Assembly: GCF_000014745.1 (NCBI RefSeq)
Contig: NC_008347.1
Location: 248,001 to 312,000 of the forward strand
Reading direction: 5' to 3'
DNA from: Maricaulis maris MCS10
Lineage (GTDB): Bacteria; Pseudomonadota; Alphaproteobacteria; Caulobacterales; Maricaulaceae
DNA length: 64,000 nucleotides
The translations under genes were made by a program, and so were the position numbers. Below are positions 14,334-44,935 of this stretch, in pieces (position 1 is the stretch's first letter; each line of letters begins with the position of its first letter). The notes beneath the pieces were generated by a model. That model was not told where the DNA came from. It saw only the letters and a list, made by a program, of their open reading frames with translations, and ran no database searches.

Positions 14334-14369
14334 CACTGAAAAGCAATCGGAGCCGGTTATGCCGCGAAA

Positions 14370-14409
14370 TGACAAGGTTGGACATTTTGATTGACAAGGT
14401 TGGACATTT
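14370..14409 (+). repeat. Tandem 18-bp direct repeat upstream of TonB receptor gene
   Basis: TGACAAGGTTGGACATTT occurs twice without mismatch, at 14370-14387 and 14392-14409, a 22-bp period (about two helical turns). It lies 66 bases before the receptor start, in the only sizeable gap of the beta-glucan locus. Identical spaced copies suggest paired binding sites on one DNA face, for LacI or another factor. Each copy begins with a -35-like TTGACA or ATGACA. Confidence 0.7.
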
Positions 14410-14474
14410 AGCGAAGTCTGACCTCAATTCGTCGCCATAAAACCGATAACGGGGCGCTTTTAGGGGAGATATTC

Positions 14475-17321: not shown

Positions 17322-17343
17322 GCGATAGCCAGGAGGTACAGCC

Positions 17344-18330: not shown

Positions 18331-18372
18331 CGCTGATGCGCTGAGCCGGACGAGCGAAACAGGAAGCCAATC

Positions 18373-19833: not shown

Positions 19834-19868
19834 ATCCGATCAAAGGGTAGTGGGCGGATCGCTCCGCC

Positions 19869-22500: not shown

Positions 22501-25500
22501 ATGACCAAGACAATTCAGTCTTACTCGATCTGCGATGCGCGTCATCTGCAGAATAAAGCGGATGCGCTGAACAAGCGGTCCCTCCTCACGGGAACCATCC
22601 TGTCACGCCTTGGCCAACTCGGCGTTGCCGCAGTGCTGTCCGGAGCAATGATGGCCGCCGGAAGTGGCGACGCGCTCGGGCAGGCCGGGGGAGTCATTGT
22701 TCACCCTGACACCAATGCGAATTTGACCATCCAGGCGACTGAGGGCGGTCAGGTTCTCACCAGCAACTATCTGATCATCTATACCACATTGACCGCACTG
22801 ACGGCCGCCAGTATTGGCACAACCATCGCGGACCCGACCAATCAGGGCGAAGCTGTCGAAGTGATCTCTGTCGTCGTCAACCCGACAACCGGTCTGGCGA
22901 CATCCATGGTCGTGCGCCCGGTTGTGGGAGGGGCCAATCGGACCGTCACGACCTACCGTGACGCGAGTGCGGACTATGAGCCCGTCAGTGCAGGTTCGCC
23001 AGCAGGCACGACGCTGACCGCCCCCAATGCGGCTGTTGGGGATAGCAACCTGTTTTATAGTGTCTCGCGCGGCCGCACTGGGGCCGATGGCAATAATGGC
23101 GGCGGCATCGGTTTCCTGAGCTATCCCGCAGGGGATGGCGAGCCTGGCGGCAGTGTCCTGGTCCCTCACACAGCGGTTGCGGCCTTGTCACATGGCCCGG
23201 TCGAGGTGATCTCCGACGGCGTTGCCGGAGTTGTTATTGGCAGCCAGGGGGGATCCGGTGGTGACGGCGGCTATACTATCGGCATTGGCACCGTGGCCGG
23301 TCGAGGCGGTGCGGCCGGTAGCAGCGGAAATGTAACCGGGACCAATTTTGTGGATGTCGTCACGGGGCGAGATCCGGAATCGCTGGCTCAGCCCGCCTGT
23401 GCACCACGGGCAACTGTTAATGCCTGTGATCCGACAGGTGCCTACTCTCACGGTGTTCATGTCTTTAGCCGATCCGGTACTGCGGGTGAGGGTGGAGCCG
23501 GCATCATTCTTGGCTTCGGTGGTGCCGGGGGAAGCAATGATACGACCGCTGGAACAGCGAGCGGAACGAATTACGGCCAGGTGACAACCTGGGGTGAAGG
23601 CGCGATCGGTTTTCTGGTTCAGAGCGTTGGCGGGTCGGGTGGCGAGGGCGGCGGCAGCTATGGCCTCGTTTCATTGCCAGGAGGCGGGAGCTGGGCAGGC
23701 AATGCCGACAACGCTATCGGCACGAATTATGGGAATATACTGACGCATGGCGTTGGTGCCCATGGAATGTATGTCCAGAGTGTCGGCGGATCCGGCGGCG
23801 TCGGCGGTCTGGGTGTCGGCCTGGTCACGCTTGGAGATAGTGGCGGAGCTGGCGGGGACTCCGGTGCGGCGACAGCAATCAACCACGCTGACAACATCAC
23901 CACTCATGGTGACTACGCAATTGGGGTCGGCGCCCAAAGCGTTGGCGGCGGCGGCGGTGATGGGTCAACCGCTGCCGGCTTGGTGGCATTGGGTGGTGAT
24001 GGATCAACAGGCGGTGAAGTCACGCTTGGCTCCCTTGTTTTTGTTCATCAAGGCGCTGGGCGGATCGACACTTATGGTCGTGGCAGCCACGCGATCTTCG
24101 CGCAGAGCATCGGCGGCGGCGGAGGGAATGGAGGCATAGGCGGCGGTCTTGTCGGTCTTGGGGGTGATGGCAGTGCAGCGGGCGATGGCCGCGATGTCGA
24201 AGTCCAAACAGAAGCCGGAGCACAGATCCGCACGCGGGGCGAGTTCGCTTATGGCATTTTTGCCCAGAGTATCGGTGGCGGCGGTGGTGCAGGTGCTGTT
24301 GGTGCCGGCCTGATCGGGCTGGGTGGTGACGGTGCCGGCGGCGGAAGTGCCGGTAATGTCCTTGTGGTCAACAATGCCGAAATCACGACAGTCGGCCGTG
24401 AGGCTCGCGGACTCTTTGCCCAGAGCATTGGTGGTGGCGGTGGAGCCGCACACGCAGCCGGCGGGCTTATCGCTGTCGGTGGCAGCGGCGGCGGGGCCGG
24501 CAATGCCGGGGCCAATGTTGATGTTGAAAACTACAGCCTCATCTCGACACACGGCATTGGCGCGGATGCGGTCTTTGCCCAGTCCATTGGCGGGGGCGGT
24601 GGAGCTGGTTCTCCGACAGGTGGATTGGTCGCCATCGGGGGCGATGGCGGTAGCGGCGGGGATGCTGGCGAGGTCGACGTCCAAAATCACGGAAATCTGC
24701 ATACTCGTGGGGATCGCGCGCGCGGTATCTTTGCCCAAAGTATCGGTGGCGGTGGCGGCAGCGGCGGCGATACGGGTGGCCTGATTGCCATTGGCGGCGA
24801 TGCTGCGCCTGGAGGTAACGCCGTTATAAGTGATGGTGCCCTTGTCTATGTTCGCAATTCGGGTGCTATCGAGACTGAAGGTAACGTATCCAGCGCTATC
24901 CACGCGGCTTCGGTCGGCGGTGGCGGCGGTGATGGCGGCACGACCGGGGGCGTCTTCTTTACCATCGGTGGAGATGGTGCCGCAGGCGGTGATGGTGGGG
25001 ACGTACGTGTTGATCATGCCAATAATCTGAGGACGAGCGGGAATGATTCCCATGGCATTTTCGCCGAGTCGGTCGGCGGTGGCGGCGGCAGTGGCGGATC
25101 CACTGTTTCGGTCAGCGCATTCATCGGTGTTGCGCTGGGCGGCGATGGCGATGTTGGCGGCGATGGCGGCGATGTAAGGGTCAATTTCCAGAGCCGAACC
25201 ATTACTCTGGCCGGTGCACCGGTCGAAGTTGACCCGCTTATCGAGACGAGCGGCGACCGGTCGCGGGGCGTGTTTGCCCAGTCAGTCGGCGGTGGCGGCG
25301 GAGCCGGCGGTTTCTCTGTCCAGGTTGCGCTAGGATATATCGGGGCCTTGAGCATCTCTCTGGGCGGCGACGGCGCAGGCGGCGGCGACGGCGGCGAAGT
25401 GCTGATCTGTGAACCCGGCACTGCGAGTTCGGTGCTGTGCAGTGACGTCAATATCCGCACCAGCGGCGAGTTTTCGGAAGGTCTTCTGGCGCAATCTGTT

Positions 25501-28500
25501 GGCGGCGGGGGTGGCGCGGGTGGATTCGCCATCTCCTTCGCAGGCGCCGCAGGCGAGACGGCCGCCGGAGCGATTTCCATCGGACTTGGCGGTGATGGCG
25601 CCGGAGGTGGATCGGCCGAGCGCGTGTTTGTCGATCTTGGTGGCAGCATTGCCACGCTGGGTGACTTCTCAACCGGCATGATTGCCCAGTCGGTTGGCGG
25701 CGGTGGCGGCGCGGGTGGTTTCAGTGTCGCGGCTGGTGTTGCGGCAGCTGGAGTCGCGTCGGGGTCGATCACGGTTGGTCTGGGCGGAGACGGCGGCGCT
25801 GGTGGCGCTGGCCGTTCAGTCGATGCAACTTTCGACGGGACGATCTCGACCCGGGGTGATCATTCACTGGGCGCTGTTATTCAGTCCGTGGGTGGCGGCG
25901 GCGGCAATGCCGGATTCAATCTTTCGGTGCCGATCGGCCTGTCCAGCACGGTGGCCGGCGGTATCGGTGTCGGCCTCGGCGGCTCTGGCGGCAACGGCGG
26001 AAGTGGCGGCCTTGTGACGGGGACCATCGGCGGCCTGGTAACCACCAGCGGCGATTTTGCGTCTGGCGCCCTGATCCAGTCCGTCGGCGGCGGCGGTGGT
26101 AATGGCGGCTTCAATATCAGCGGATCGATCACGCTTGCCGGTGTCGCCGCGGGCGGCATTACGGTTGGACTGGGCGGGTCGGGCGGCCTTGGCGGCGCGG
26201 GCGGTGAAGTGATCGCCGCGGCGAGCAGTATTGCAACCTCGGGCGATTTCTCGAACGGATTTGTAGCCCAGAGCGTCGGTGGCGGCGGCGGCAACGGTAA
26301 CTTCAACGTCTCGGGCAATATCGCAATTGGCGGGACAGTCGGCGGCGGAATTGCGGTCGGCCTTGGCGGTTCGGGCGAAGCCGCCGGCAGCGGCGACGTT
26401 GTCAATGCGACCCTCACCGGCGTAGCAGCCACCCGGGGTGACCAGTCCACGGCCATCTTTGCCCAAAGCCTCGGCGGCGGCGGTGGCAATGGCGGCATCA
26501 ATGTCTCAGGCAATCTGGCATTCAGCGGCGCCGTTGCCGGCGCGATCGGTGTCGGCCTCGGCGGTTCCGGGGAAGGCGGCGGTTCGAGTGAAAGTGTCAC
26601 GCTGACAGTCGTCGGATCAGCCCATACGGGGTATGTCGACGAGTTCGATGTCCGTCATGGTGATGAAAGCACAGCTATTTTTGTCCAAAGCCTCGGCGGC
26701 GGCGGCGGTAATGGCGGCATCAATGTGACTGGCGGAATTGTCGCCGCGAGTACAGGCGCAGGGACGCTCGGTTTCGGCCTCGGTGGTTCCGGCGGTGACG
26801 GCGGTAACGGCTGGACCGCAACGCTGGCACTGAATGCCGGTGTGGCAGATGACGACAATACGCTGATCGCAGCGACGACTGCAGGCGACCGGTCCGGCGC
26901 GATTGTCGTCCAGAGCCTTGGTGGTGGCGGCGGCAATGGCGGCCTCAATGTGGCCGGCTCTCTGGCGTTCGGAACGAGCTTCGCTGGCAATCTCGGAGTT
27001 GGAATTGGCGGAACCGGTGGCGATGGCGGTCACTCGAACCTGGCGATTGTCCCCGGCGTCCCGGTCACCTACATGGCCGATGCCGGCATCAACGGAGATG
27101 TCGTCACCCTGGGCAATGAATCGCGCGCGATCGTAATCCAGAGCGTCGGTGGCGGTGGCGGAAATGGTGCCGTCAACGTCGCTGGCGGCATTTCAGGCAC
27201 GACGTCCGGCCTTTCGGGCAACATCCTTGTCGGCGTTGGCGGCTTCGGTAGTGACGGTGGCGATGGTGGCGCTGTAATTGGCACCATCAATTCAGATATT
27301 CAAACGGGACAATTCGCGCCGGGCACCACGACAACGATCTCGGGAGACGGCGCATCGGGTCTGACGATCCAGAGCCTTGGCGGCAGTGGTGGGATCGGGG
27401 GCGTCAATGTCACCGGAGGCATCTCTGTCGGTCTCGGGAGCGGCGGCACCGGAACCTTGGGTGTCGGTATTGGCGGTTTCGCAGGCGGCGGCGGGTCGGC
27501 TTCCACGGTGGACGGAACGTTCACGGGCAGCATTCTCACGCGGGGTGACGATGCCTACGGCGCGTTGCTGCAAAGTGTCGGCGGCGGCGGCGGCGCGGGT
27601 GGCGTCAATGTGACGGGAGCGGTCGCACTCAGCGCAGGAACCACGGGTTCAATCGGTTTCGGCCTCGGTGGCTTCGGGGGCGATGGCGGTCGGTCTGACC
27701 GCGTGACGGGCCATCTGAGCGGCAATGTCACCACCTTTGGCAATGATGCTTTCGGCGCCATGATTCAAAGCCTTGGCGGGGGCGGTGGCGTCGGTGCGGT
27801 CAATGTGACCGGAACACTGGCGGCGAGCCTGGGCGGCAGCAGTAATTCGGGCGCTCTGAGTATCGGCGTCGGTGGGTTCGGAGGAGATGGCTCACCGTCC
27901 GGTGATGTCGTGGCGACGGTAAACGGCACCTATTTGACGCACGGTCTGCGCTCGTCAGGCGTGATTGCGCAAAGTGTCGGCGGCGGCGGCGGCAATGGCG
28001 GTGTCAATGTCTCCGGAGCAATTCAGTTTGGCTTGGCCGATGGAGCTGCCGGCACTATCGGCGTCGGTGGTTTCGGTGGGGATGCAGCGTCGAGTGCTGG
28101 CAATGTCAATCTCGTGCGGAACGGCGATACAATCACCCGCGGTGCCGACTCGATTGGCGTGCTGGCGCAGAGCCTGGGCGGCGGAGGCGGCGCCGGGGGC
28201 GTCAACGCGTCGGCCGGCATTTCCGTTACCCTTGACGATGGCGCCAGCCTCGGCTTCGGCCTGGGTGGTTTCGGTGGCGACGGCGGCAGTGCCGGCAACG
28301 TAACCGCCAATATCCAGGGCAGTGTCATCTCGACTGGCGTGCTCAGCGATATCACGACGGATGATGAACCCGTCCTGATCACAGATTTCGGCGACTCCTA
28401 CGGGCTGCTTGGCGAAGGTGGCAGGCGTCGCCTCGGCGGATCGCATGGTATTGTCGTTCAAAGCCAAGGCGGCGGTGGTGGCATCGGTGGCGTCAACGTC

Positions 28501-31500
28501 ACCGGGCAACTGGCCATCGGCGGTGATAACGGGCGCGGTGTTTCGATCGGTATCGGTGGCTTCGGTGGCGATGGCGGTGACGCTGGCAGTGCCCACCTGA
28601 CCTTCGGCAATGCCGACAATACCGTGTTTGCCCAAGGGGTTGGCGATGATCGCGCAGCCGTAATCGTCCAATCTGTCGGCGGAGGCGGAGGTGTCGGGGG
28701 GATCAATGTATCCGCTGGCATTACCACAACCGGCAATCTGATTGCCGGCATCGGCGGATTTGGTGGGGATGGCGGCCTAGGTGGCGCGGTCACAGCGGAT
28801 ATCAACGCTAACCTTCGCGCCGACGGTCGACGTGCGCGCGGCTTGCTTGCCCAGAGTGTCGGCGGCGGCGGCGGGTTCGGTGCCATCAATGTATCCGGCG
28901 GCATAAACGCGACCGGTTCTGCGAGCGTCAGCGATGATCCCTCCCTCGTCTTCGGTCTTGGCGGGTTCGGTGGCGACGGGAATCGAAGTGGCAATGTGGC
29001 TGTAAATTACAGCGGAAATGTCGCAGTTACCGGCGAAGATTCGATCGGCATGCTGGTCCAAAGCGTTGCCGGTGGTGGCGGCGATGGCGGCATTAATGTT
29101 CTGGGCAATCTGGCGCTGGGTGACGGCGAGGGCTTTGCCGCATCGATTGGTATTGGTGGTACCGGTGGCGATGGAGCCAATGCTGGAGATGTGACGTTCA
29201 ACAGCACTGGCAATGTGTCGGTGGCGACGTCTGAGCCGATTGACGATGATACGCCCGAGTTTGATCCGAGGCGGACCAGCCATAATGCGGTCGGCGTGCT
29301 GGTCCAGAGCGTGGGCGGCGGCGGCGGAGCCGGTGGTGTGAATGTTACCGCCGCGCTGTCTCGCGCGGGGCAACCGATTGCCGTCGGCGTTGGTGGCTCC
29401 GGTGGTTCTGGCGGTGATGCGGGAGCTGTCCGGGTCGTGCGCGGGTACAGCGACCCTGGCGCAGCAGCGACAAGTACAACCGATGAAATTGCTCCCAGTG
29501 GTGCCACGCCCGGTTCGATCTGGACCGCCGGCGATGATGCGACCGGGTTGATTGCCCAGAGCGTCGGTGGCGGCGGTGGCAATGCCGGAATCAATGTGAC
29601 CGTTTCGGGCGCAAAGCCCGGTGACAACAACCCCGTCACGGCACAATTCGTGATTGGTGGGAGTGGTGCTGGCGCGGGCGCTGGGTCCACGGTTGACGTT
29701 CACCATGCCGGAAACATCCTGACCACAGGCACGCAAAGTCGCGGCTTGGTAGCCCAGTCGATTGGCGGCGGCGGCGGTAATGCCAATATTAATCTGGGCC
29801 TCGGTTATGTGAAGGGCGCGAGCGCGCTGAACCTGTCTGTCGGCGGGGCCACGGGCGCTGCCGGTGGGGCAGGGGCGGTGACGGTGTCTCACTCTGGCGT
29901 GATCGCCACAGAGGGCGATGACTCCGATGGATTGACGGCTCAGAGCATTGGCGGTGGTGGCGGCAATACAGCCATGAATACTGCCATGGGTTTGGGTTCC
30001 AGCCGTCAACTGGACATTGCCATCGGCCGTTCTGGCGGAACGGGCGGCCTCGGCGGCTCGGTCACGGTTACTTCCGCGGGTACCATTCTCACTCAGGGTG
30101 ACCGTTCGCGGGGAATCATCGCGCAAAGCATCGGAGGCGGCGGTGGCATCAGTGGCTCAATCGCAGTCGGTGCCGCAAGCGTGTCAGGCGCGGGAACCAG
30201 CCAGAGGTCCTACGGAGGCAAGCTTATTGTTGGCCTTGAAGGCGGCTCTGGTGCAGAAGCCAGCGACGTCGAGGTAACATCCTCAAGCACGATCTTGACG
30301 GCCGGCGCCGGGTCGCATGCGATCCATGCCCAAAGTCTCGGCGGCGGTGGCGGCGTTGGCGGAGTCGCGGTCAATACGCTGATTGGCCGTTCGGGCGCGC
30401 TGAACCTTGGCGTCGGTGGCTCTGGCGGGTCCGGTAACTTCGCCGGGAGAGTTGATGTCATATCGACCGGAAATCTGCAGACCGGCGGCGTCGCCGCGGA
30501 CGGGATCCTGGCACAAAGCATCGGAGGCGGTGGCGGCACAGGTGGTTATGCGGCAACCATAGGCCTGCAATTCCTCGGTGCGGCCAAGAACGGTTCATCG
30601 ACCTTGGGCGTCAATGTCGGCGGAAGAGGTGGCAATGCCTCTGATGGAGGCATCGTAACGGTCCTCAACCAAGGCCTCATCAGCACATTGGAGCGACGTT
30701 CATACGGCATTCGCGCGCAGTCGATCGGCGGCGGTGGCGGCGATGGCGGCATGGTCTTTAACGGTCGCATCCAGGGCAGTGGCGACAATATGGATGCCAC
30801 GTTCAACGTCGGCGGCGAGGGTGCCGGAGGCGGGATCGGACAGGACGTCACCGTTACGAATGAAGGCGCGATCTATACCGGAGGCGACCAGTCTGCAGGC
30901 ATCAGTGCCAACAGCATCGGTGGTGGCGGTGGCGATGGCGGCTTGCTGTTGAACGGCGATGTCGGGTCGACCGGCAGCAACAATATGAGCGGGCGTTTCA
31001 CCGTCAATATCGGCGGCTCTGGCGGCATGGGCGGGGTGTCCGGGAATGTTGTGGTCAACAATACACCGACCGCGGCCGCAGATAGCGGACTCATCGTTAC
31101 GAGAGGCCGTGAGGCCTACGGTATCCTTGCGCAAAGCATCGCCGGCGGCGGCGGCAATGGATCGTCCATCATTTCGCTGACGGCGCTCGGCGGTGACAAT
31201 GACAGCGCCCAGCTCGGCCTGAATGTGGGCGGCAGCGGTGCCGACGCCAGCAGTGCCGGTACGGTCACGGTCAATAATGGTGGCCGGATCGACACCAGCG
31301 GGTTTGGCGCTCACGGCATTCTCGCCCAATCGATTGGCGGCGGTGGCGGCAATGGCGGCCTCGTCTTCTCCGGCAATGCTGTCTTGAACGCACGGTCGAT
31401 CGCGAATGCCTATTCACCCTTCATCTCTGTCGGTGGTTCCGGCGGTGATGGCGGCGATGCCAATACGGTTTCTGTTATCAACACCGGTCACATCGTGACG

Positions 31501-34500
31501 CGCGGTGCAGGTGCCCACGGTATCTTGGCCCAGAGTATTGGTGGCGGCGGCGGTAGCGCGCAGATGGGCTTCGGCCTCTCCAACAATGTCGCATCGGTTG
31601 CCATGTCCAACAGTATCGCCGCGATAGCGGGTGCGACCGGCGGTGGCGATGGCGGACTGGGCGGTGATGTCATCGTCAACCATACCGGTGATATCACGAC
31701 GCTTGGCGAAGGCTCCGTCGGTATCAAGGCGGAGAGCATCAATGGAGGCGGTGGCTCGCTGGGCTTTGACCTGACGGGTATTACAACGCTTCCAGGCCGA
31801 CCGGCTGTTGTCGATAGCGTGTTCGGTTCCGATGCTTTCGGCGGTTCGCCGGGTGGAACTGCTGCGGACCCGCTGATCATGGTGCGGCTCGGCTCCATGG
31901 ATTCAGGCGATATGAATCCCGGCTCGGTGACCCAGACCGGAAATGGCACTTTCGGCGCGGCTGGTGATCATAGCGTCGCTGAAATGGCCCAGTCTATTGG
32001 CGGCGGCGGCGGCACGCTTACTTTGGCGGGTGTCCTCGGAACTGAAGCGGTCTCAGCGGCCCCGGTAGCGGCCCAGGAGCAAGAGGGCAAGTTGGCTGCG
32101 GGACCTCTCCCGGGCATTGATCTCGGCCTGGTTCTCGGCTCGCTGAACGGTACCAACAACCATGGCGGCTCGATTGAATCCGCCCATGTCGGTGCCTTGC
32201 TGACCAATGGCGTCATGTCGCCCGCGCTTCTGCTGCAGTCGATCGGTGGCGGCGGCGGACGCGGCACGATTGATGTCACAGCACCGTCCGGAGCCTCGCT
32301 CAACCCGATCGATCTCGCACTGGGCTCCGTCAATGGCCAAGGCGAAACCGGGGGCGACGTCACGCGCACCCAAACGGGTTCAATCAGCACGACCGGAGCC
32401 TTTTCCGCAGCCAGCCTGATCCAGAGCATTGGCGGCGGCGGCGGTGTCGCAAACGTCCAGATCGACGCAGTGGACCAGTCCAATCTGCGGGCGCGGCCAA
32501 ATCTGGGAAGTCTTGGCGGCACTGACCTTGGATCTGGCGATATTGTCAGCGGGCTTGCAGGCGATGTCTACACCACCGGTGACGCTGCCAGCGGCCTGGT
32601 GCTGCAATCAATCGGTGCTGGGGGCGGCGATGTCCGCATAGCCGGAGTTGACCGGGTTGGGGTGACCCTGGGCGGTCAGCTCGACGCGCATGGCGACGGT
32701 GGCGCGGTCACGTTGAGCCATGTCGGTCTGGTTCAGACAATGGGCAATCGCTCCCACGGTGTGATGCTGCAGTCGATCGGTGGAGGCGGTGGTGCCGTCA
32801 CCACAAATGCCAGCGAAATTGAGTACCAGCTGATGTCGGATAACTCTGGCGCGGGCGGAAACATTCGCTTCACTCAGACTGGCAACATCATCACCGTTGG
32901 CGAAGGTTCATTCGGAATCATTGCGCAGAGCCTTGGCGGCGGTGGCGGCTGGGTCGATGGTGTATTTGCCGGCACGGCCGGTGGCGCCGGCAGCGGTGGC
33001 GAGATCACATTGACCGTTGACGGAGCCCTGCTTGCGACGGGCCTCGGTTCGACTGCCGTATTTGCGCAGAGTGACGGCGTTGACGGTGCTGGTAACATCA
33101 GCATCGCTCTGCTTGAGTTCGCGCGCGGTGGCAGCGGCCTCGGACAAGGCGCCTTTATCGACGGGGGCGCGAACAATACCTTGCTGACGACGACGTCTTT
33201 GTCCGCGGTGTCGACTTGGGCTGTCCGGTCGACCACGGGTAATGACGCGGTGGCCAATACCGGCCTTGTGGTCGGTAACCTGGATCTTGGCACGGGGGTC
33301 AACTCCTTCGACAACCTGGCCGGTTCGACTTTCATCGCCATCGACACAATCGATCTACGCGATGCCCCGGGCGAAACTCAGCTTTCAACCTCGGACCAGA
33401 TCTTTGATGCCGCGGCTGAGCTTCCGGTCATACCGCCAGCGGACACGGCCGCGGAACCGGTGTCGGTCAATGGGGCGGAGGACCGGACGAATGCAGCTGA
33501 CCCGATTGATGGACCGCTGGCATCCGAGCCTTCGCGTCCGGTTGTAAGCGATCTTTCCGATGCACCGGCACCGGCGCTGGTCTCCATTGACCAGGTTCTT
33601 GGCGGTGCTGGTCCGGCTGCGCTACCGGCGGGGCCGAACTCGCTTGGTGTGGCCCGTGCGGCGGCGTCCCGGCCCGAGTCGGCCACGCTCTCTGCCGCAG
33701 ATGTATCGGGTGAAAGGCATACGCTGCAGGCCGCTCTGACGGCGTCGCCGCAGACTGGGACGGCAGCCCCGTCAGTAGCCGAGCATCCAGGGGATACCAA
33801 ACGCCCGGTCCAGGCGGACCTGTCGGAGGTCTCGCAGCCGGCAATGGTCTCGTTGGCGTCTGTTGACGTGTCGGGCGGAAGCAAGCGTCCGGTTCAGGAG
33901 AGAGGCCTGTCCCTGCCGCCCACCGGTCCGGAATTTGAGCCGGCCCCCGGCACGGAACTGGCAGGCAAGCCAGGCGGTGTCCAGGTGATGGCGGTTCTCG
34001 ATTTGGACGACATTCCGGCACCGAGTGAGCGGGAGCAGTCGGCCTTGTTGGCATCAGCAGATCCGATGAATGCCGCAACCTTCCGCAATTCGGGCACGTT
34101 CCTGATGGGATTGTCGGCTTCGGACGCTCCGATCGATCTGCTGAATGGTGAGCTGTTCGGTAACCTGGACGATCGGGATGATCCGGCGACGAACCTGTTT
34201 TACGGCGTACGTGTCATCAACACGGTCGAACTGGATGGTCATTTCGAGCAGACAGCCGATGGCCATATGGTCTTTGACGTGGCCTTCGGTCCTTATGCTT
34301 CGGACCGGGTCAATGTGACCGGACTGACGACGGTCGACGGTACCGGTGACATCACCCTGATCTGGCTCGAGAACACCGATCGGGTAACGCTGTTTGCGGC
34401 TGGTGAGGGCGGTGTCGATAATGGCTTGTCCTTCCGCGACACGCTGGCGATCGATTACTCGGTGGCGGCCGATGCGGCGGGCGTCCACCTGCTGATCGAT

Positions 34501-35607
34501 ACCGATTTCGGTCTGGCCAGCCTCAATGGCAATGGCCGGGCTCTCGGTGGTCATATGGACTCGGCTCTTCAGGCCGGCGGCTCAGCCGGCCTTGGTCGCT
34601 TGCTTGGGTTCTTGGGGAATCTGCAAAATGATCAGCTGGATACGTATGAGGCGGTCTTTGCGGAGCTCAATCCCGAGCCCCACACGGCGGTCATGCGGGG
34701 ACAACTGACTGCGGCGAACAGCTTTGCCGATGATCTATTCAACTGCGGCTCTCCGGTCGCAAACGGCGGGGACGATTGTGTCTGGTCACGTCTGGAGATG
34801 ACCGCGAGTAGCAGTGACGCCACGGTTGAGAGCCTGCCCACCGAAACGCAGGCGATGCGCTTTACCGGCGGGTTCGAACGACGCCTTGGCAATGACTGGT
34901 CGGTCGCGGCCGGTGTCAGTTTTGAGGACACCTCACCAATCCGCGTCGACGGCCAACGCGCCATGACCGAAAGTCAGGGTTTCTCTGTCGGTCTTGGTTT
35001 CGAGCGCAACCAGGCGACGGGTCCCTATTACGGGGGCTCGGTGTCGGGCGGCTGGTCCTGGCATGAGACCGAGCGGGTGGTAACCGTGTTCGAGGCCGGC
35101 GTCGGTACTTCGACACCTGAATCCGGGTATGCGCGGATCGGTGGACATATCGGCGACAGCTTCCGGAACGGCAGTTTCTTTGCCCGTCCGCAGGTCTCGG
35201 CCTCGCTGACCGCGCTCCATCATGACGGTCTGATTGAGGACGGTCTGGACGGTCTGGGCGTAGAGGTTCTCTCCGAGACAGAGTTGGTTGCGGCCATCAA
35301 TCCGCAACTGACAGTGGGCCATATCTTCCGGGAGACCGAGGACATGATGGGCGTTGTTTCGCTGGCAGCCGGCGCACGGTTGATGTCGCAGGATAGTCTG
35401 GAACTGCCCATGCGTTTCCTGGGCGCCAACCCGCTCGCCGAGCCGGCGCTCATCGGAACCGTGCTCGATGACGTTGTCTACCAGATCGGTGCCCGGATTG
35501 AGATCGTCGGTGACGAACGGGGCAGCCTGTCGATTGGCTACGATGTCGAGTTCGGTGAGCAGACCGAGCACCGGCGCGCCGGTATCGACTTCCGCGTTCG
35601 CTTCTAG
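22501..35607 (+). CDS. Giant Gly-rich repeat autotransporter 1 (type Va secretion)
   Basis: The protein has 4368 residues from ATG 22501; the frame is open back to a GTG at 22489. A long N-terminal signal (about 1-62) has a 25-residue polar leader, then a hydrophobic stretch ending GDALGQA. From about 240 to 3560 the passenger consists of some 48 repeats of roughly 60-90 residues. Each carries a motif such as AQSVGGGGGNGG after a TxGDxxxGI segment, followed by a Gly-rich strand pair and GGxGGDGG. This suggests a long beta-solenoid. A Pro/Ala-rich linker (about 3630-3850) with KRPVQ words leads to a cap domain (about 3860-4010) and a C-terminal barrel (about 4080-4368) ending FRVRF. The barrel has a Cys pair (FNCGSP...DCVWSR). 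It is probably an adhesin or surface fibre; the role is inferred. It is a paralogue of the gene starting at 54046. Confidence 0.93.
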   Translation: MTKTIQSYSICDARHLQNKADALNKRSLLTGTILSRLGQLGVAAVLSGAMMAAGSGDALGQAGGVIVHPDTNANLTIQATEGGQVLTSNYLIIYTTLTALTAASIGTTIADPTNQGEAVEVISVVVNPTTGLATSMVVRPVVGGANRTVTTYRDASADYEPVSAGSPAGTTLTAPNAAVGDSNLFYSVSRGRTGADGNNGGGIGFLSYPAGDGEPGGSVLVPHTAVAALSHGPVEVISDGVAGVVIGSQGGSGGDGGYTIGIGTVAGRGGAAGSSGNVTGTNFVDVVTGRDPESLAQPACAPRATVNACDPTGAYSHGVHVFSRSGTAGEGGAGIILGFGGAGGSNDTTAGTASGTNYGQVTTWGEGAIGFLVQSVGGSGGEGGGSYGLVSLPGGGSWAGNADNAIGTNYGNILTHGVGAHGMYVQSVGGSGGVGGLGVGLVTLGDSGGAGGDSGAATAINHADNITTHGDYAIGVGAQSVGGGGGDGSTAAGLVALGGDGSTGGEVTLGSLVFVHQGAGRIDTYGRGSHAIFAQSIGGGGGNGGIGGGLVGLGGDGSAAGDGRDVEVQTEAGAQIRTRGEFAYGIFAQSIGGGGGAGAVGAGLIGLGGDGAGGGSAGNVLVVNNAEITTVGREARGLFAQSIGGGGGAAHAAGGLIAVGGSGGGAGNAGANVDVENYSLISTHGIGADAVFAQSIGGGGGAGSPTGGLVAIGGDGGSGGDAGEVDVQNHGNLHTRGDRARGIFAQSIGGGGGSGGDTGGLIAIGGDAAPGGNAVISDGALVYVRNSGAIETEGNVSSAIHAASVGGGGGDGGTTGGVFFTIGGDGAAGGDGGDVRVDHANNLRTSGNDSHGIFAESVGGGGGSGGSTVSVSAFIGVALGGDGDVGGDGGDVRVNFQSRTITLAGAPVEVDPLIETSGDRSRGVFAQSVGGGGGAGGFSVQVALGYIGALSISLGGDGAGGGDGGEVLICEPGTASSVLCSDVNIRTSGEFSEGLLAQSVGGGGGAGGFAISFAGAAGETAAGAISIGLGGDGAGGGSAERVFVDLGGSIATLGDFSTGMIAQSVGGGGGAGGFSVAAGVAAAGVASGSITVGLGGDGGAGGAGRSVDATFDGTISTRGDHSLGAVIQSVGGGGGNAGFNLSVPIGLSSTVAGGIGVGLGGSGGNGGSGGLVTGTIGGLVTTSGDFASGALIQSVGGGGGNGGFNISGSITLAGVAAGGITVGLGGSGGLGGAGGEVIAAASSIATSGDFSNGFVAQSVGGGGGNGNFNVSGNIAIGGTVGGGIAVGLGGSGEAAGSGDVVNATLTGVAATRGDQSTAIFAQSLGGGGGNGGINVSGNLAFSGAVAGAIGVGLGGSGEGGGSSESVTLTVVGSAHTGYVDEFDVRHGDESTAIFVQSLGGGGGNGGINVTGGIVAASTGAGTLGFGLGGSGGDGGNGWTATLALNAGVADDDNTLIAATTAGDRSGAIVVQSLGGGGGNGGLNVAGSLAFGTSFAGNLGVGIGGTGGDGGHSNLAIVPGVPVTYMADAGINGDVVTLGNESRAIVIQSVGGGGGNGAVNVAGGISGTTSGLSGNILVGVGGFGSDGGDGGAVIGTINSDIQTGQFAPGTTTTISGDGASGLTIQSLGGSGGIGGVNVTGGISVGLGSGGTGTLGVGIGGFAGGGGSASTVDGTFTGSILTRGDDAYGALLQSVGGGGGAGGVNVTGAVALSAGTTGSIGFGLGGFGGDGGRSDRVTGHLSGNVTTFGNDAFGAMIQSLGGGGGVGAVNVTGTLAASLGGSSNSGALSIGVGGFGGDGSPSGDVVATVNGTYLTHGLRSSGVIAQSVGGGGGNGGVNVSGAIQFGLADGAAGTIGVGGFGGDAASSAGNVNLVRNGDTITRGADSIGVLAQSLGGGGGAGGVNASAGISVTLDDGASLGFGLGGFGGDGGSAGNVTANIQGSVISTGVLSDITTDDEPVLITDFGDSYGLLGEGGRRRLGGSHGIVVQSQGGGGGIGGVNVTGQLAIGGDNGRGVSIGIGGFGGDGGDAGSAHLTFGNADNTVFAQGVGDDRAAVIVQSVGGGGGVGGINVSAGITTTGNLIAGIGGFGGDGGLGGAVTADINANLRADGRRARGLLAQSVGGGGGFGAINVSGGINATGSASVSDDPSLVFGLGGFGGDGNRSGNVAVNYSGNVAVTGEDSIGMLVQSVAGGGGDGGINVLGNLALGDGEGFAASIGIGGTGGDGANAGDVTFNSTGNVSVATSEPIDDDTPEFDPRRTSHNAVGVLVQSVGGGGGAGGVNVTAALSRAGQPIAVGVGGSGGSGGDAGAVRVVRGYSDPGAAATSTTDEIAPSGATPGSIWTAGDDATGLIAQSVGGGGGNAGINVTVSGAKPGDNNPVTAQFVIGGSGAGAGAGSTVDVHHAGNILTTGTQSRGLVAQSIGGGGGNANINLGLGYVKGASALNLSVGGATGAAGGAGAVTVSHSGVIATEGDDSDGLTAQSIGGGGGNTAMNTAMGLGSSRQLDIAIGRSGGTGGLGGSVTVTSAGTILTQGDRSRGIIAQSIGGGGGISGSIAVGAASVSGAGTSQRSYGGKLIVGLEGGSGAEASDVEVTSSSTILTAGAGSHAIHAQSLGGGGGVGGVAVNTLIGRSGALNLGVGGSGGSGNFAGRVDVISTGNLQTGGVAADGILAQSIGGGGGTGGYAATIGLQFLGAAKNGSSTLGVNVGGRGGNASDGGIVTVLNQGLISTLERRSYGIRAQSIGGGGGDGGMVFNGRIQGSGDNMDATFNVGGEGAGGGIGQDVTVTNEGAIYTGGDQSAGISANSIGGGGGDGGLLLNGDVGSTGSNNMSGRFTVNIGGSGGMGGVSGNVVVNNTPTAAADSGLIVTRGREAYGILAQSIAGGGGNGSSIISLTALGGDNDSAQLGLNVGGSGADASSAGTVTVNNGGRIDTSGFGAHGILAQSIGGGGGNGGLVFSGNAVLNARSIANAYSPFISVGGSGGDGGDANTVSVINTGHIVTRGAGAHGILAQSIGGGGGSAQMGFGLSNNVASVAMSNSIAAIAGATGGGDGGLGGDVIVNHTGDITTLGEGSVGIKAESINGGGGSLGFDLTGITTLPGRPAVVDSVFGSDAFGGSPGGTAADPLIMVRLGSMDSGDMNPGSVTQTGNGTFGAAGDHSVAEMAQSIGGGGGTLTLAGVLGTEAVSAAPVAAQEQEGKLAAGPLPGIDLGLVLGSLNGTNNHGGSIESAHVGALLTNGVMSPALLLQSIGGGGGRGTIDVTAPSGASLNPIDLALGSVNGQGETGGDVTRTQTGSISTTGAFSAASLIQSIGGGGGVANVQIDAVDQSNLRARPNLGSLGGTDLGSGDIVSGLAGDVYTTGDAASGLVLQSIGAGGGDVRIAGVDRVGVTLGGQLDAHGDGGAVTLSHVGLVQTMGNRSHGVMLQSIGGGGGAVTTNASEIEYQLMSDNSGAGGNIRFTQTGNIITVGEGSFGIIAQSLGGGGGWVDGVFAGTAGGAGSGGEITLTVDGALLATGLGSTAVFAQSDGVDGAGNISIALLEFARGGSGLGQGAFIDGGANNTLLTTTSLSAVSTWAVRSTTGNDAVANTGLVVGNLDLGTGVNSFDNLAGSTFIAIDTIDLRDAPGETQLSTSDQIFDAAAELPVIPPADTAAEPVSVNGAEDRTNAADPIDGPLASEPSRPVVSDLSDAPAPALVSIDQVLGGAGPAALPAGPNSLGVARAAASRPESATLSAADVSGERHTLQAALTASPQTGTAAPSVAEHPGDTKRPVQADLSEVSQPAMVSLASVDVSGGSKRPVQERGLSLPPTGPEFEPAPGTELAGKPGGVQVMAVLDLDDIPAPSEREQSALLASADPMNAATFRNSGTFLMGLSASDAPIDLLNGELFGNLDDRDDPATNLFYGVRVINTVELDGHFEQTADGHMVFDVAFGPYASDRVNVTGLTTVDGTGDITLIWLENTDRVTLFAAGEGGVDNGLSFRDTLAIDYSVAADAAGVHLLIDTDFGLASLNGNGRALGGHMDSALQAGGSAGLGRLLGFLGNLQNDQLDTYEAVFAELNPEPHTAVMRGQLTAANSFADDLFNCGSPVANGGDDCVWSRLEMTASSSDATVESLPTETQAMRFTGGFERRLGNDWSVAAGVSFEDTSPIRVDGQRAMTESQGFSVGLGFERNQATGPYYGGSVSGGWSWHETERVVTVFEAGVGTSTPESGYARIGGHIGDSFRNGSFFARPQVSASLTALHHDGLIEDGLDGLGVEVLSETELVAAINPQLTVGHIFRETEDMMGVVSLAAGARLMSQDSLELPMRFLGANPLAEPALIGTVLDDVVYQIGARIEIVGDERGSLSIGYDVEFGEQTEHRRAGIDFRVRF

Positions 35608-35672: not shown

Positions 35673-36032
35673 GGGGGCGGCGGGCAAGCTCGCTGCGGAC
35701 AAGGGCGCCAGCGGAGGTTTTTCCAGACCGCTCCGCTTCAGTCTGACACCACCTCTTGGAGATCGAAGCGAACCTTCATGACGGGCAGCGCGATCTTTGC
35801 CTTCCAGAGACCAGCTCGCACCAAATTCCGTCCTCCCCCTTTGGTTTGGCGGCGTCCACGCCAAATAACTTCGCATTGTGCCCTTTTGGCGTTGCAATCA
35901 ACTCTCCAGCCGTTAGAAGCGTGGTTAACAAAGCGTTGAGAATTCCACGAGCCTAGGGACAGGCGCGGAGGCAACTCAGCCTGGTTGGCGGTAAAGCGGT
36001 GCTTTGACACCGCGGTGTTGGGGACGAAATCC
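35673..36032. other. Intergenic region before the Ig-repeat autotransporter
   Basis: It holds a solo IS6-type right end (35725-35762, listed separately) and a block near 35808-35838 related to sequence at 12929-12960. Otherwise no gene is seen. The last 100 bases include GTTAACAAAGCG and a GGGGAC ribosome site before ATG 36033. Confidence 0.5.
35725..35762. repeat. Solo IS6-type right-end sequence, 38 bp
   Basis: These 38 bases (starting AGACCGCTCCGCTTCAGTC) are identical to 40469-40506, in the same orientation. There they form the right end of a deleted IS6-family element. No transposase sequence adjoins this copy. The two copies bracket the Ig-repeat autotransporter gene at 36033-40139. 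Confidence 0.8.
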
Positions 36033-39000
36033 ATGTTTGCTTTTCTTACGGGTCGGCCGATGGCTGCGGTCAATCGGGGTGTGCGGACAGATGCCAAGGC
36101 TGGCGCGCCGCGCCGTGTGTCCATGCTGCTGGCCGGGATCGCGCTGGGTTTTTCGGCGCCGGTTCACGCGGCTGATAATGCCAGTGTGAGCCGGGTTCAG
36201 CTTTTGATAGACCGTCAATGTACCGCCGCGTCTCCCACAGTTTTCGGTACGACTGTTGCATACACTGGCACTGTCGATGACTTGCCGGGAAACGCCAATG
36301 TCGGCGACATTGTCCAAATCTATCACCTGGATGGAAATAATTCTGTTGTTGCGCGAAATTCTGGTTACGCGGGCTCTCTGAATGCGCAGGTCGGAGTGCA
36401 AAGCGGTGCGAACGCCGCCACTTTGATGATCGCAACGCCGGCAACGCATCCCTATACCGCCGTGCTGTGGGACGCGACGACTGACACTTTCGCCTTCAAC
36501 GCCGGCGACACGCTGGATGTTAACGCGCCGGAAGTGCTGGCCACCATGTCATTTGACATGAATGCGCTGGACGCTGATTGCCCGGGCGGCCCTGCGGCGG
36601 ATACGACTCCGCCGCAGCTGGCGAGCATTGAGCGTAGTACCCCTGCGGATGAGTTCACAAGCTACGATTTTTTGGTCTGGCGGGTCACGTTTGACGAGGA
36701 CGTTCAGGGGCTCGATACCAACGATTTCGCGATTTCTGGAACAACAGCCAGCATAGACACCGTAACCGCAGGATCAGGCGCATCAGAGTATTCGGTGAGA
36801 GCACGCGGTGGCGACCTCGCGACGCTGGACGGTGTGGTCAGCTTGTCGATCAGCGGCTCGGCGACCATCGAGGACACGGCCGGAAACAGCCTGACCAACA
36901 CGGCTGCGACTGGCGCGACCGAGACTTATACGCTCGACAACACGGCGCCGACCGTGACCTTCACGAATGGCACACCTGACCCGGCCACGGGTGCTTTCCA
37001 GCTGACAGCGACCCTCTCGGAAGCGGTCGATCAATTCAGTACTGACGGCATAACCGTCGGCAATGGGACCCTCTCAAACATCGTGGCCGTCAGCGGGACG
37101 GTTTACACCGCGACTGTCACGCCAACCACGCGCACATTGGTTACAATTGACATGCCGTTTGGTTGGGCCGTCGACCTCGCTGGCAACATCAATTCCGCAG
37201 CCACACAGCTCGTCGTCGACGTGTCCATCGATACTACGCCGCCGACGGTGGCGCTAACGTCATCAGCGACCTCGCCGACCAATGCGCCGTTCACTGTCAC
37301 CGCCACCTTCTCGGAAGATGTCACAGGTTTTGATGCCTCGGACCTCCAGGTCACGAACGGTGCGGCGTCCAATACCCAGATGGCCAGCGCCAGCGTCTAC
37401 ACCGCTACCGTTACGCCGGCGGCGGATGGCGATGTCGTCATCACCGTCCCGGCCGGCGCGGCGCAGGACGGCACGAGCAATGCCAGCCTGGCGGCAACGC
37501 CGGTGACGATAGTCTTCGACGCCACAGCCCCGACCGTGGCCATAGCGGCCAATGTTGGCCCAACAGTGGGCGGACCGTTCGAAGCTACTTTCACCTTCTC
37601 TGAAAGCGTTACCGGGTTTGCCGAGGGCGACATTACCGTCGGCAACGGCACAGCCTCCAACGTCAACGGCGTCAGCCAGAGTGTCTATACAGCGACGATC
37701 ACACCGGCCGCTGATGGCCAGGTCACCATCGATGTCGCCGCACAGGCGGCCTTCGACCTGGCCGGTAATTTCAGTACAGCTGCTGCACAATTCACCATCA
37801 CCAAGGTGTCCGATGCAATTCCGCCAGATGTGGTGCTGAGCACCAGCGCCACCGATCCGGTGTCGGGCGCATTCGCCATCACCGCAACCTTCTCGGAAGA
37901 TGTGACGGGCTTTGAGCTCGCCGATCTGGTCGTCGGCAATGGCGTGGCGTCGAATTTCAGTGCAGTCAGTGCCAGCGTTTATACAGCAGACATCACGCCT
38001 ACGACCGACGGTGCGGTGACTGTGGACGTCGCGACCGGTGCCGCCAATGATGGCGCCGGCAATCCCAGCACGGCGGCCGCACAATTCTCGATCAGTTCCG
38101 ACGCGACGCCACCGGGTCTGGCGATCAGCCTTCCAGGTGCCACTGTCGAGGGCACGTTCACCGCGACTTTCACCTTCTCTGAAGGCGTCACCGGGTTCGA
38201 GTTGAGCGATATCACGGTCACCAACGGTGCGGCCTCGGCGCTGACCCCGGGCGCAACCGGTGTCTACACGGCCACCATCACCCCCGAAACAGTCGGCGCG
38301 CTGACGGTTTCAGTGGCCGAGGGGGCGGCGCAGGACTCGGCCGGCAACGGGTCGGCAGCTGACAGTGCCAGCGTTGAAGTGGTTTTCCCGGCGGTGGATG
38401 TTGATCTCGACCTGGGCTCGACAGTCCTTGATCCCAACAGCGTCACGACGACCGTGACGCTGTCGAATCCGGGCAGCCTGGCGGTCGATTTCGTTGCTTC
38501 TGTTGATGTGCCCTGGGCTGACGTGACGCCTTCAAGCGGGACGATCCCGGCATCAGGAAGTATTCAATTCACCGTTGGCCTCAACGCCGAGGCAGACGGA
38601 CTCGATCCGGGCGACTATTCCGGCACGGTGACGGTCACGACGGCCGCGCCGGCAGGCCAAGCAGCCCAAGCGTCGCGCGGGCCGGCATCGGCTGGCTCCA
38701 CCGTCCTGGCCAATATTCCGGTCACCGCCTCAATCGCAGCACGCTTTGGTTCGCTTCAGGTCGTTGCCACCACGCCGGGCGGGACCCATGGCGACGAAAC
38801 ATTCACCTATGCCTCCAGCGACGCCGATCTGGGTGGTCTGAGTCTGACCACATCTGGTGGTGCGGCTAGCTCGGCCCCGATCCAGAAGATCTTCGGCACC
38901 TACGACCTCGCCCAGAGCCTGCCGCAGGGCTGGGCGCTCGAGAGCCTGACCTGCGCCGGCGACACCGATGGCGGTTCCGTGATCGACCTGGCAGCCGGTT

Positions 39001-40139
39001 CGGTGGATATCGACCTGGATCCGTCCGAGACCATTGTGTGCACATTCGCCAACACTCGCGATGCAGACGCAGTCCGTCTGGCGACCTTGCGGGCGATCAA
39101 CAACTACATGGTTCGCCGCGCTGACCGTATCCTGACCGGTGCTCCGGACCTGTCCACTCGCCTGCGAGACCGGACTGCGACGACGCCAGGTCGTTTCTCG
39201 GCTGATGTCGATGGTGCCAATGTCACCATGAATTTTGCTGGCAGCCTGTCGGGCCTGCGCAACCACGCCAAGGCCAATGAGCGCCAAGTGCCTGACGGTC
39301 CGCAGCTGGCGGAGTCGGGCGCGGCCCGCTTCGACGCCTGGTTCTCTGCAAGTTATGATGCGCTGGATGATGACAGGGCGGGCGACCAGGCCGACAGCCG
39401 GTTTGGTCTGTTCCAGCTGGGCGCGGACTGGCTTGTGGCCGACAATGCGTTGGTCGGCATCATGGTCCAGATCGATCAGATGAGCGAGACTGCAGACAAT
39501 CCGGTCGAGGCCGCGGGTGCAGTCAGCGGCGCGGAGATAGACGGGACGGGCTGGATGGCCGGCCCCTATGCCGTCTGGGAATTCGCCCCGGGTACCACGC
39601 TGGATGTCCTCGCCATGTGGGGCCGGTCGGAGAACACCATCAATCCACTTGGCTTCTACGAGGATGAGTTCGAAACGACGCGTTACATGATTCGCGCAAA
39701 CCTCACCGGGGAGTGGTCTGCGCCGCGTTCCGACGCTGGCCAGCTCAAAGTCCGTCCGGGCATTTCCTGGGCGCATTATGAAGAGACGCAGGATGGATAT
39801 ACCGACAGCCTGGCGATCGCGATCCCGGAGCAGACAATCTCGGTCGGACGGCTGGAAGCCGGGCCGGAGATCGCCTATCGAATGGATGGCCAGCGGCCGG
39901 GCAGCTGGTGGGAGCCAACTGCAGCTGTCAGAGCCGTCTGGGACTATGATGGTGCCGATCTGATGGATGAAACCGGGCGCAGCATTGATGATGGCCAGCT
40001 TCGCGCTGATGCCTCATTGGGGCTGCGAGGACAGTGGGCCAATGGTGCTCATGTGTCGGCGCAAGCGCGCTTCTCGGGCCTCGGGAACAATGACTTCAGC
40101 GCCAATGGCGTGAGGGTCGAATTGCGAATGCCATTCTAG
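36033..40139 (+). CDS. Ig-like-repeat autotransporter
   Basis: The protein has 1368 residues from ATG 36033, which has GGGGAC upstream; the frame is open further back but lacks a better start. The signal peptide has an extended polar part and ends near Ala47 (SAPVHAAD). A first domain (about 50-190) is unrecognised. Six Ig-like domains of about 95 residues follow (about 190-790), with the recurrent pattern TPPTVALTSS..TATFSEDVTGF..D..V.NG.AS..VYTATVTP. A BACON-like segment with WADVTPSSGTIPASGS comes next (about 790-880). A further domain ending IVCTFANTRD (about 900-1020) precedes a C-terminal barrel (about 1090-1368) ending VELRMPF. This type V surface protein is unrelated in passenger to the two Gly-rich giants beside it. 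An adhesive or sugar-binding role is inferred from the Ig repeats. Confidence 0.9.
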   Translation: MFAFLTGRPMAAVNRGVRTDAKAGAPRRVSMLLAGIALGFSAPVHAADNASVSRVQLLIDRQCTAASPTVFGTTVAYTGTVDDLPGNANVGDIVQIYHLDGNNSVVARNSGYAGSLNAQVGVQSGANAATLMIATPATHPYTAVLWDATTDTFAFNAGDTLDVNAPEVLATMSFDMNALDADCPGGPAADTTPPQLASIERSTPADEFTSYDFLVWRVTFDEDVQGLDTNDFAISGTTASIDTVTAGSGASEYSVRARGGDLATLDGVVSLSISGSATIEDTAGNSLTNTAATGATETYTLDNTAPTVTFTNGTPDPATGAFQLTATLSEAVDQFSTDGITVGNGTLSNIVAVSGTVYTATVTPTTRTLVTIDMPFGWAVDLAGNINSAATQLVVDVSIDTTPPTVALTSSATSPTNAPFTVTATFSEDVTGFDASDLQVTNGAASNTQMASASVYTATVTPAADGDVVITVPAGAAQDGTSNASLAATPVTIVFDATAPTVAIAANVGPTVGGPFEATFTFSESVTGFAEGDITVGNGTASNVNGVSQSVYTATITPAADGQVTIDVAAQAAFDLAGNFSTAAAQFTITKVSDAIPPDVVLSTSATDPVSGAFAITATFSEDVTGFELADLVVGNGVASNFSAVSASVYTADITPTTDGAVTVDVATGAANDGAGNPSTAAAQFSISSDATPPGLAISLPGATVEGTFTATFTFSEGVTGFELSDITVTNGAASALTPGATGVYTATITPETVGALTVSVAEGAAQDSAGNGSAADSASVEVVFPAVDVDLDLGSTVLDPNSVTTTVTLSNPGSLAVDFVASVDVPWADVTPSSGTIPASGSIQFTVGLNAEADGLDPGDYSGTVTVTTAAPAGQAAQASRGPASAGSTVLANIPVTASIAARFGSLQVVATTPGGTHGDETFTYASSDADLGGLSLTTSGGAASSAPIQKIFGTYDLAQSLPQGWALESLTCAGDTDGGSVIDLAAGSVDIDLDPSETIVCTFANTRDADAVRLATLRAINNYMVRRADRILTGAPDLSTRLRDRTATTPGRFSADVDGANVTMNFAGSLSGLRNHAKANERQVPDGPQLAESGAARFDAWFSASYDALDDDRAGDQADSRFGLFQLGADWLVADNALVGIMVQIDQMSETADNPVEAAGAVSGAEIDGTGWMAGPYAVWEFAPGTTLDVLAMWGRSENTINPLGFYEDEFETTRYMIRANLTGEWSAPRSDAGQLKVRPGISWAHYEETQDGYTDSLAIAIPEQTISVGRLEAGPEIAYRMDGQRPGSWWEPTAAVRAVWDYDGADLMDETGRSIDDGQLRADASLGLRGQWANGAHVSAQARFSGLGNNDFSANGVRVELRMPF

Positions 40140-40866: not shown

Positions 40867-40888
40867 TAAAAACCTAAGGGGAGTGAAT

Positions 40889-43924: not shown

Positions 43925-43981
43925 TCGACCGTCGTGACTTTGCGGACTTCCCCCTTGCCCTCAAGGGGACTGTGGCGCCTC

Positions 43982-44008
43982 CTGGTGCCCGGCTTAGCCG
44001 GGCGCCAG
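43982..44008 (+). terminator. Strong hairpin after TonB receptor gene (terminator-like)
   Basis: CTGGTGCCCGGC pairs with GCCGGGCGCCAG over 12 bp (one G-T wobble) around a TTA loop, 58 bases past the receptor stop. No T-tract follows, so it may be a transcript-stabilising structure or a rho-assisted stop rather than a simple terminator. Confidence 0.55.
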
Positions 44009-44049
44009 CGGGGCGCCGCTTCATTCGCGGGTATGGCCTGGAAAATTTG

Positions 44050-44059
44050 TAGTCCAATT
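44050..44059 (+). promoter_or_regulatory. Candidate GntR operator, site 3
   Basis: TAGTCCAATT, an exact copy of site 1, lies 79 bases before the GntR start in an otherwise featureless gap. It fits autoregulation. Confidence 0.6.
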
Positions 44060-44137
44060 ACGATAATGCTATGATTTTCAGGTGGTCCGAGCGATCGGGC
44101 CGAATCTTGAGAATGGTCAGAAACGGCATCAAACAAA

Positions 44138-44899: not shown

Positions 44900-44925
44900 G
44901 CCAATTGCCTAGGCCATTTTGAACA

Positions 44926-44935
44926 AATTGGACTG
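44926..44935 (-). promoter_or_regulatory. Candidate GntR operator, site 4
   Basis: On the minus strand this reads CAGTCCAATT, one base off the consensus. It lies 80 bases before the PL6 start, in the only gap between the GntR gene and the lyase operon. Just upstream (44897-44911) TAGGC-CAATT-GCCTA can form a small hairpin at the end of the GntR gene. Confidence 0.55.

Follow-up and report, generated by a model that had tools for sequence, protein, structure and literature searches.

The findings in this study suggested, on balance, that a giant open frame of Maricaulis maris MCS10 encodes a passenger of new architecture, in which polyglycine-II helices, arranged in two layers, would stack at the same 0.48-nm spacing as a right-handed beta-helix, giving a blade that tapers and contains about 100 glycine helices. 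In a widespread family of giant autotransporters, this blade would serve as the passenger, and in one branch of that family the "invasion" protein IalB would be a biogenesis partner dedicated to it. To our knowledge, no larger glycine-helix assembly than such a blade of about 100 helices has been found. The stretch of DNA analyzed (the window, 64,000 nucleotides) corresponds to positions 248001-312000 of a single-contig genome of 3.37 Mb, and contains the giant gene, referred to here as type A, together with most of a paralogue, missed in the original prediction and referred to as type B. Their features, in window positions, are as follows.

22501..35607, + strand: giant type Va autotransporter-like gene (type A), 4368 aa, a single open frame with a C-terminal PF03797 domain
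22501..22680, + strand: probable long N-terminal export signal, residues about 1-60 (a charged and then hydrophobic stretch, judged by eye)
22669..23202, + strand: N-terminal domain, membrane-distal by analogy, residues about 57-234 (phmmer matches to the N-terminal parts of relatives)
23203..33024, + strand: array of 49 composite repeats, residues 235-3508, each predicted as beta-helix rung, glycine helix 1, hairpin and glycine helix 2 (repeat HMM, column profile and models)
29689..30840, + strand: six repeats modeled by AlphaFold2, residues 2397-2780 (pLDDT 92.1, pTM 0.85)
34780..35544, + strand: C-terminal translocator barrel PF03797 (E 4.7e-13, profile positions 1-255 of 255)
54046..64000, + strand: paralogous giant autotransporter (type B) of the same repeat family by repeat HMM, 3527 aa and 41 units, TTG start assumed, ending at 64629 beyond the window
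54181..55671, + strand: N-terminal domain and first repeats of the paralogue, modeled by AlphaFold2 (pLDDT 84.0, pTM 0.70) and used for superpositions

The type A frame was open from a GTG at 22489 or an ATG at 22501 to the stop at 35607, and the length of 4368 residues given in the original prediction held when counted from the ATG. The C-terminal barrel proposed there was likewise recovered, as a scan of the C-terminal piece placed PF03797 within the final 308 residues; an NCBIfam row for the same piece, at 13.9 of 228 bits, was far under its cut-off and was ignored. The protein terminates in an aromatic residue (...FRVRF), and the final residue was also F in relatives whose frame is uncut by a contig end. 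Among its 4368 residues were 12 Lys, 243 Asp and 7 Cys, the last in agreement with the near absence of Cys noted previously. Promoter and terminator scans at the ends of the gene found none.

The repeat number of about 48, originally counted by eye, was upheld by three counts. Gly-run motifs numbered 45 with a strict pattern and 48 with a looser one, while a repeat HMM, which had been put forward as a check, was built and delimited 49 units at a median spacing of 65 aa. In each of two separate sets of 20 shuffles, 48 of the 49 units outscored the best match (set 1, best 21.6 bits, matches in 16/20; set 2, best 16.9 bits, matches in 14/20); for the paralogue, 37 of 41 units scored above the best of 20 shuffles. 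At the DNA level, Tandem Repeats Finder detected only 2 short arrays, indicating that the units are much diverged. The column profile gave a strand block, V.V...G.I.T.GD.S.GI.AQS, followed by the nearly invariant run [IV]GGGGGNGG, a variable stretch and a closing GGxGGxGGxGG run of period three (GGX period at columns 54-64). The predicted order of elements (TxGD..GI, AQSxGGGGG, GLGGxGGxGG) was confirmed by this profile and by motif counts. Glycine was near-invariant in the first segment, and the X of GGX was frequently Asp, Ser or Asn.

Over 3895 family units, the first glycine segment measured 8.00 residues (sd 0.21) and the second 10.1 residues (sd 1.95), lengths that lean towards the match columns of the HMM, which was built from the two window proteins. 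The stretch between the segments ranged from 8 to 25 residues in the type A protein (46 scored units) and from 8 to 33 residues in the paralogue (36 scored units). Arrays with at least 35 units numbered 73. Of these, 56 passed a filter that called for a first unit at residue 150-450 and for scores on both glycine segments in at least 35 units; the remainder either lacked the N terminus or had too small a number of fully scored units and were excluded. A few of the 56 are one contig reached by two routes (e.g., L047/L067 and L051/L079). In all 56, the stretches, modeled as hairpins, were shorter in units 2-8 (median 8) than in units 13-28 (median 21), which suggested that the blade tapers.

Six type A repeats were modeled from a 48-sequence alignment (model 1), and the mean pLDDT of 92.1 and pTM of 0.85 indicated that consecutive repeats, whose structure prediction had also been proposed as a check, are ordered rather than disordered. 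The N terminus of the paralogue was modeled from 21 sequences (model 2; pLDDT 84.0, pTM 0.70), with L084 left out of the 21 N-terminal loci because it was cut. As both models contain the same repeat type, they are not fully independent. The pLDDT fell at the hairpins and over some of the N-terminal domain. DSSP assigned strands to the rung and hairpin of model 1 and coil to both glycine segments, as expected of polyproline-II (PPII) helices. Foldseek returned no match in the PDB for either model at E <= 0.001, and nothing among viral models at the same threshold. When VIA-align was used to re-align Foldseek's list, each model superposed on two kinds of solved fold, a beta-helix and a PPII bundle. 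Model 1 superposed on Vag8 (Z 15.4, 1.9 A, 146 residues) and pertactin (Z 13.1), and, at rank 4, on 7jjv, a springtail antifreeze protein with a nine-helix PPII bundle (2.1 A, 125/126 residues, 34% identity), with a Z of 12.5 that falls in the range, below about 13, where bundles and repeats may share only a common arrangement. For model 2, 7jjv was the top Foldseek row (E 4.5e-3) and superposed at Z 14.0 (1.6 A, 124/125 residues, 35% identity), with Vag8 at Z 15.7 (3.0 A, 174 residues). In the comparison with Fap2-type beta-helices, which have a V-shaped cross-section with a hydrophobic groove, 9qe7 superposed at Z 11.3 (10.4 A) for model 1 and Z 13.2 (4.8 A) for model 2; such superposition is general among beta-helices.

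The 146 and 174 residues aligned to the beta-helix over about 5-7 repeats correspond to about 25 residues per repeat, which was read as one rung. The rise of a beta-helix is about 0.48 nm per rung, and 49 units would therefore amount to a passenger of about 24 nm if each 65-residue repeat contributes one rung. The aligned ranges, together with the sequence, suggested that the glycine segments form the PPII bundle. The beta-solenoid fiber of the original prediction was thus retained in part, as the passenger is predicted to be ordered, repetitive and beta-helical (pLDDT 92.1; superpositions on Vag8 and pertactin), while its length of 70-80 nm was not, as one rung per repeat would put it at about 24 nm. 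From these models, it appears reasonably probable that the type A protein and its relatives form a short, broad, tapered composite blade, not a long thin fiber.

In the proposed mechanism, the protein would be a surface-anchored type Va autotransporter, secreted through its own barrel, with each repeat of about 65 residues adding about one right-handed rung of about 24 residues. The chain would leave the rung as an 8-residue polyglycine-II/PPII helix (S-[IV]-GGGGG-N-GG), pass through a beta-hairpin of 8-33 residues, and be led back to the next rung by a second PPII helix, GGxGGxGGxGG. With all parts stacked about 0.48 nm apart, the repeats would build a beta-helix spine, a slab of glycine helices and an outer edge of hairpins. 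With minimal turns in the N-terminal, membrane-distal units and long hairpins in the middle of the array, the blade would widen away from its tip. It may then serve as an adhesin or contact organelle, in which the N-terminal domain would be the tip and the hairpin edge the variable surface.

The repeat family is broadly but thinly distributed. With a 480-aa query, matches at E <= 1e-10 were obtained in 13 of 101 genomes (that of the window, 10 of the 18 listed for the genus, one from the same family and one from the same order). A sample of the class gave matches at the same threshold in 5 of 385 genomes, that of the window included. At least 318 of 597 pattern stretches encoded relatives, and 80 were kept in the named scan. 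Among the matches listed were Caulobacter, Brevundimonas, Sphingomonas, Ruegeria, Paracoccus, Hoeflea, Ochrobactrum, Xanthobacter, Bordetella, Acinetobacter, Synechococcus, Singulisphaera and others, with many MAGs; these included many proteobacteria, as well as cyanobacteria and one planctomycete genus, and the genus names were those of soil, plant, host-associated and marine bacteria. Two gammaproteobacterial MAG contigs (L073 and L124) carried repeats with 56% and 53% identity to the window protein, compared with 52-58% for named Maricaulis records, a closeness that reflects either transfer or mis-binning. In Aquabacter cavernae (G483, locus L127), about ten open frames had this repeat type. 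A plasmid search with the C-terminal part gave no match; one with the repeats also gave none, and was uninformative as the low-complexity filter may mask repeats.

Unit numbers were similar across complete arrays, at 49, 49, 50, 50 and 52 for type A homologues and 41, 49, 49, 49 and 49 for type B. The same-numbered unit was the best match for 27, 41, 35 and 33 of the 49 type A units in L046, L047, L049 and L051, respectively, while in L050, 11 units were in register and 27 matched at a shift of +2. Best unit matches averaged 57-60% identity, and for 38-40 of the 49 type A units the closest unit lay in a type A orthologue and not within their own protein. Register between the paralogue and L052 was kept across all 41 units; against four others it held over the first 20, and 8-9 later units matched at +9 to +11, indicating that a block was gained or lost. 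Between the paralogue and L052, which are type B orthologues, dN/dS was about 0.06 in the repeats (region borders approximate). The register, the closeness across orthologues and the low dN/dS together suggested that the units are ancient, that each is under constraint of its own, and that gain or loss of a unit is rare.

Large type Va proteins commonly act in adhesion (PMC9289746), and by analogy this would be the most likely function of the giant autotransporter. A mainly passive coat or spacer, acting as a shield against phage, predators or desiccation, or as a mechanical brush, instead of a specific adhesin, is a possible but less probable use of the blade. The very regular glycine-rich array, with few Lys, many Asp and no recognized ligand-binding domain, would be consistent with a coat, and a near-constant number of units would suit a requirement for height. 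Against this, the conserved N-terminal domain and the hairpin edge of variable length suggest contacts, and a general coat would be expected to occur less patchily within the genus. Conservation covers about 180 residues ahead of the array, where 21 loci matched either window protein at E < 1e-3. This domain was modeled less surely, and its Foldseek rows to SH3 or tudor-like barrels were weak (E about 0.4 and above). In the paralogue (54181-55671), the domain has two Cys a few residues apart that are kept in many relatives of this otherwise Cys-poor protein.

A more specific form of adhesion, to algal polysaccharides, was considered in view of the genomic neighborhood. Three features surround the two giant genes.

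13314-22121: laminarin-type cluster (LacI, receptor, GH16, MFS, GH3), upstream of the type A gene, by Pfam
35985..40139, + strand: a different autotransporter, with five Big_12 Ig-like stretches, SpaA_4 and a barrel by domain scans, start uncertain; beside the giant system and not part of it
40883-53419: alginate-type cluster (TonB receptor, GntR, PL6, PL17, MFS, SDR, PfkB), between type A and the paralogue, by Pfam

A sequence similar to the Big_12/SpaA_4 autotransporter also lies beside the type A gene of G001. A search for operators that might indicate co-regulation found four near-palindromes and a single LacI-like pattern, the latter lying upstream of the paralogue.

That the type A protein is an adhesin working together with the adjacent laminarin-like (GH16, GH3) and alginate (PL6, PL17) clusters is unlikely, even though both clusters flank its gene in the window and a type A gene from another genus of the same family (G039) adjoins the same LacI-TBDR-GH16-MFS-GH3 cluster, with identities of 60-73%. 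In that genome (contig C14; L160, L046 and L161), the type A gene is upstream of the laminarin cluster, and in the window it is downstream. Among nine loci of the same order, with flanks of about 7-25 kb, the laminarin set was found in G039 only, the others having single distant homologues: LacI-like proteins at 39-43% (G004, G007 and G009), GH3-like proteins at 30-42% (G005) and a receptor at 25% (G001). The 80 wider loci, mostly with about 6 kb of flank, yielded LacI at one locus, the first receptor at one, SDR at four, and GH16, GH3, PL6 and PL17 at none. The glycan-utilization neighbors are therefore local and not a trait of the family.

The original statement that no characterized member of this repeat type is known was supported as far as Pfam, NCBIfam and PDB profile searches reach. 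Six-repeat pieces of both proteins had no match in Pfam or NCBIfam at E <= 1, and the repeat profile had none among PDB sequences at the same threshold. The whole type A protein gave no match in Pfam, NCBIfam or PDB sequences, scans that are blunt on so glycine-rich a protein, as the Pfam run missed the barrel shown by the C-terminal piece. In the open-license literature, no joint treatment of "polyglycine II" and "autotransporter" and nothing on Maricaulis autotransporters was found, both weak absences; "polyproline II" with "autotransporter" gave streptococcal adhesins only, by title and abstract, and the repeat motif strings gave nothing on autotransporters, by title. The protein is best described as a type Va autotransporter with a predicted composite passenger, and a description of it was found nowhere in the literature searched.

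The C-terminal PF03797 barrel and predicted beta-helical passenger resemble those of Vag8, pertactin, UpaB and Fap2, the last a giant of 3786 aa comparable in size to the window protein (PMC13432900). Unlike in those passengers, only about 25 of the 65 residues in each repeat would form the rung, and the remainder would be glycine helices and hairpin. An ordinary thin beta-solenoid, with Gly5 runs as tight turns, several rungs per repeat and a length of 70 nm or more, would be in keeping with the good superposition of the beta-helical part on Vag8 and pertactin and with the existence of giant beta-helical adhesins such as Fap2, a rod of about 45 nm (PMC13432900). It is nonetheless improbable, slightly more so than the algal adhesin, as no more than about 25 residues per repeat align to a beta-helix, nearly the whole of a PPII bundle aligns to both models, and the glycine segments, with their fixed length and GGX period, are unlike turns. 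The original prediction of Gly5 turns was not supported, as these runs are modeled as coil, constant in length, within a region that can be superposed on a PPII bundle. Its estimate of 70-80 nm at 20-25 residues per rung is replaced, once the previously missed unit of about 65 aa is considered, by about one rung per repeat and the shorter length derived above. The word "glycine" was absent from the main text of the Fap2 structure paper in a term search (PMC12397386).

The composite blade also shares features with the glycine-rich PPII bundles of springtail and snow flea antifreeze proteins, Obg, phage S16 gp38 and acetophenone carboxylase, which are described as rare (PMC8409303). The GGX pattern is common to both, and nearly all of 7jjv superposes on the predicted models at 1.6-2.1 A. 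Those bundles have about 6-13 helices (PMC8409303), whereas here a single chain would alternate between a beta-helix and about 2 x 49 short helices. The repeat profile showed no sequence homology to the springtail antifreeze family among PDB sequences at E <= 1. An ice-binding surface protein, suggested by this PPII-bundle geometry in both models, is very improbable given the lack of a sequence match to any solved structure, the different surface implied by Asp, Ser or Asn at the X of GGX, the wide ecology of the relatives, whose genera are those of soil, plants and hosts as well as marine, and the other PPII bundles unrelated to ice (PMC8409303).

Large predicted glycine-rich PPII domains also occur in bacteria as the "sails" of mycobacterial PE_PGRS proteins (PMC13243192). 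Unlike the window protein, these have an N-terminal PE domain, and in the parts of that source available no autotransporter barrel or beta-helix spine is described for them (PMC13243192). The first 483 residues of the type A protein had no Pfam match at E <= 1, to a PE domain or otherwise. This type of repeat was found in Xanthobacter and, more than once, in Aquabacter, both near relatives of Azorhizobium. A possible functionally tested relative of the repeat family, offered here as a lead, is Azorhizobium AoaA, an autotransporter needed in legume symbiosis, together with other group 13 autotransporters (PMC9289746).

An IalB-family gene, apparently exported, lay directly downstream of the giant autotransporter, on the same strand, in 11 of the 80 kept loci (L072, L077, L085, L093, L097, L102, L107, L109, L120, L126 and L138), where the IalB frame, measured stop to stop, began 4-102 bases after the end of the autotransporter frame. 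At L102, the autotransporter frame itself was broken in three. In L118, IalB was upstream, 320 bases before the autotransporter. Of the 12 IalB-like proteins, all 10 scanned belonged to PF06776; for L097 and L109, the assignment came only from blastp clustering. The 11 genomes searched had 3-7 IalB matches each, which makes adjacency by chance unlikely. The loci are partly related (three from Ruegeria and two near-identical Ochrobactrum-like) and represent fewer than 11 events. The genome of the window had no IalB beside the type A gene and one weak partial genomic match. Two further neighbor clusters, an ABC transporter and a LuxR response regulator, were each found in 8 of 80 loci; another ("d24," 15 loci) was dropped, as it overlaps the barrel on the opposite strand. 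In Brucella, IalB adjoins a trimeric autotransporter gene, an arrangement cited as bicistronic in a paper that itself questions an operon and does not settle how the two are related (PMC7688925). The Brucella neighborhood would fit a broader involvement of IalB in the display of autotransporters.

If the composite blade is correct, it would represent a new repeat architecture, in which giant surface proteins weave the rare PPII bundle into a beta-helix, and its design principle would be the matched spacing of beta-strand and polyglycine-II. The orthologue set can be used to ask how unit number stays nearly constant. The link to IalB would provide a testable role for a protein whose tie to a neighboring autotransporter has stayed open in print (PMC7688925).
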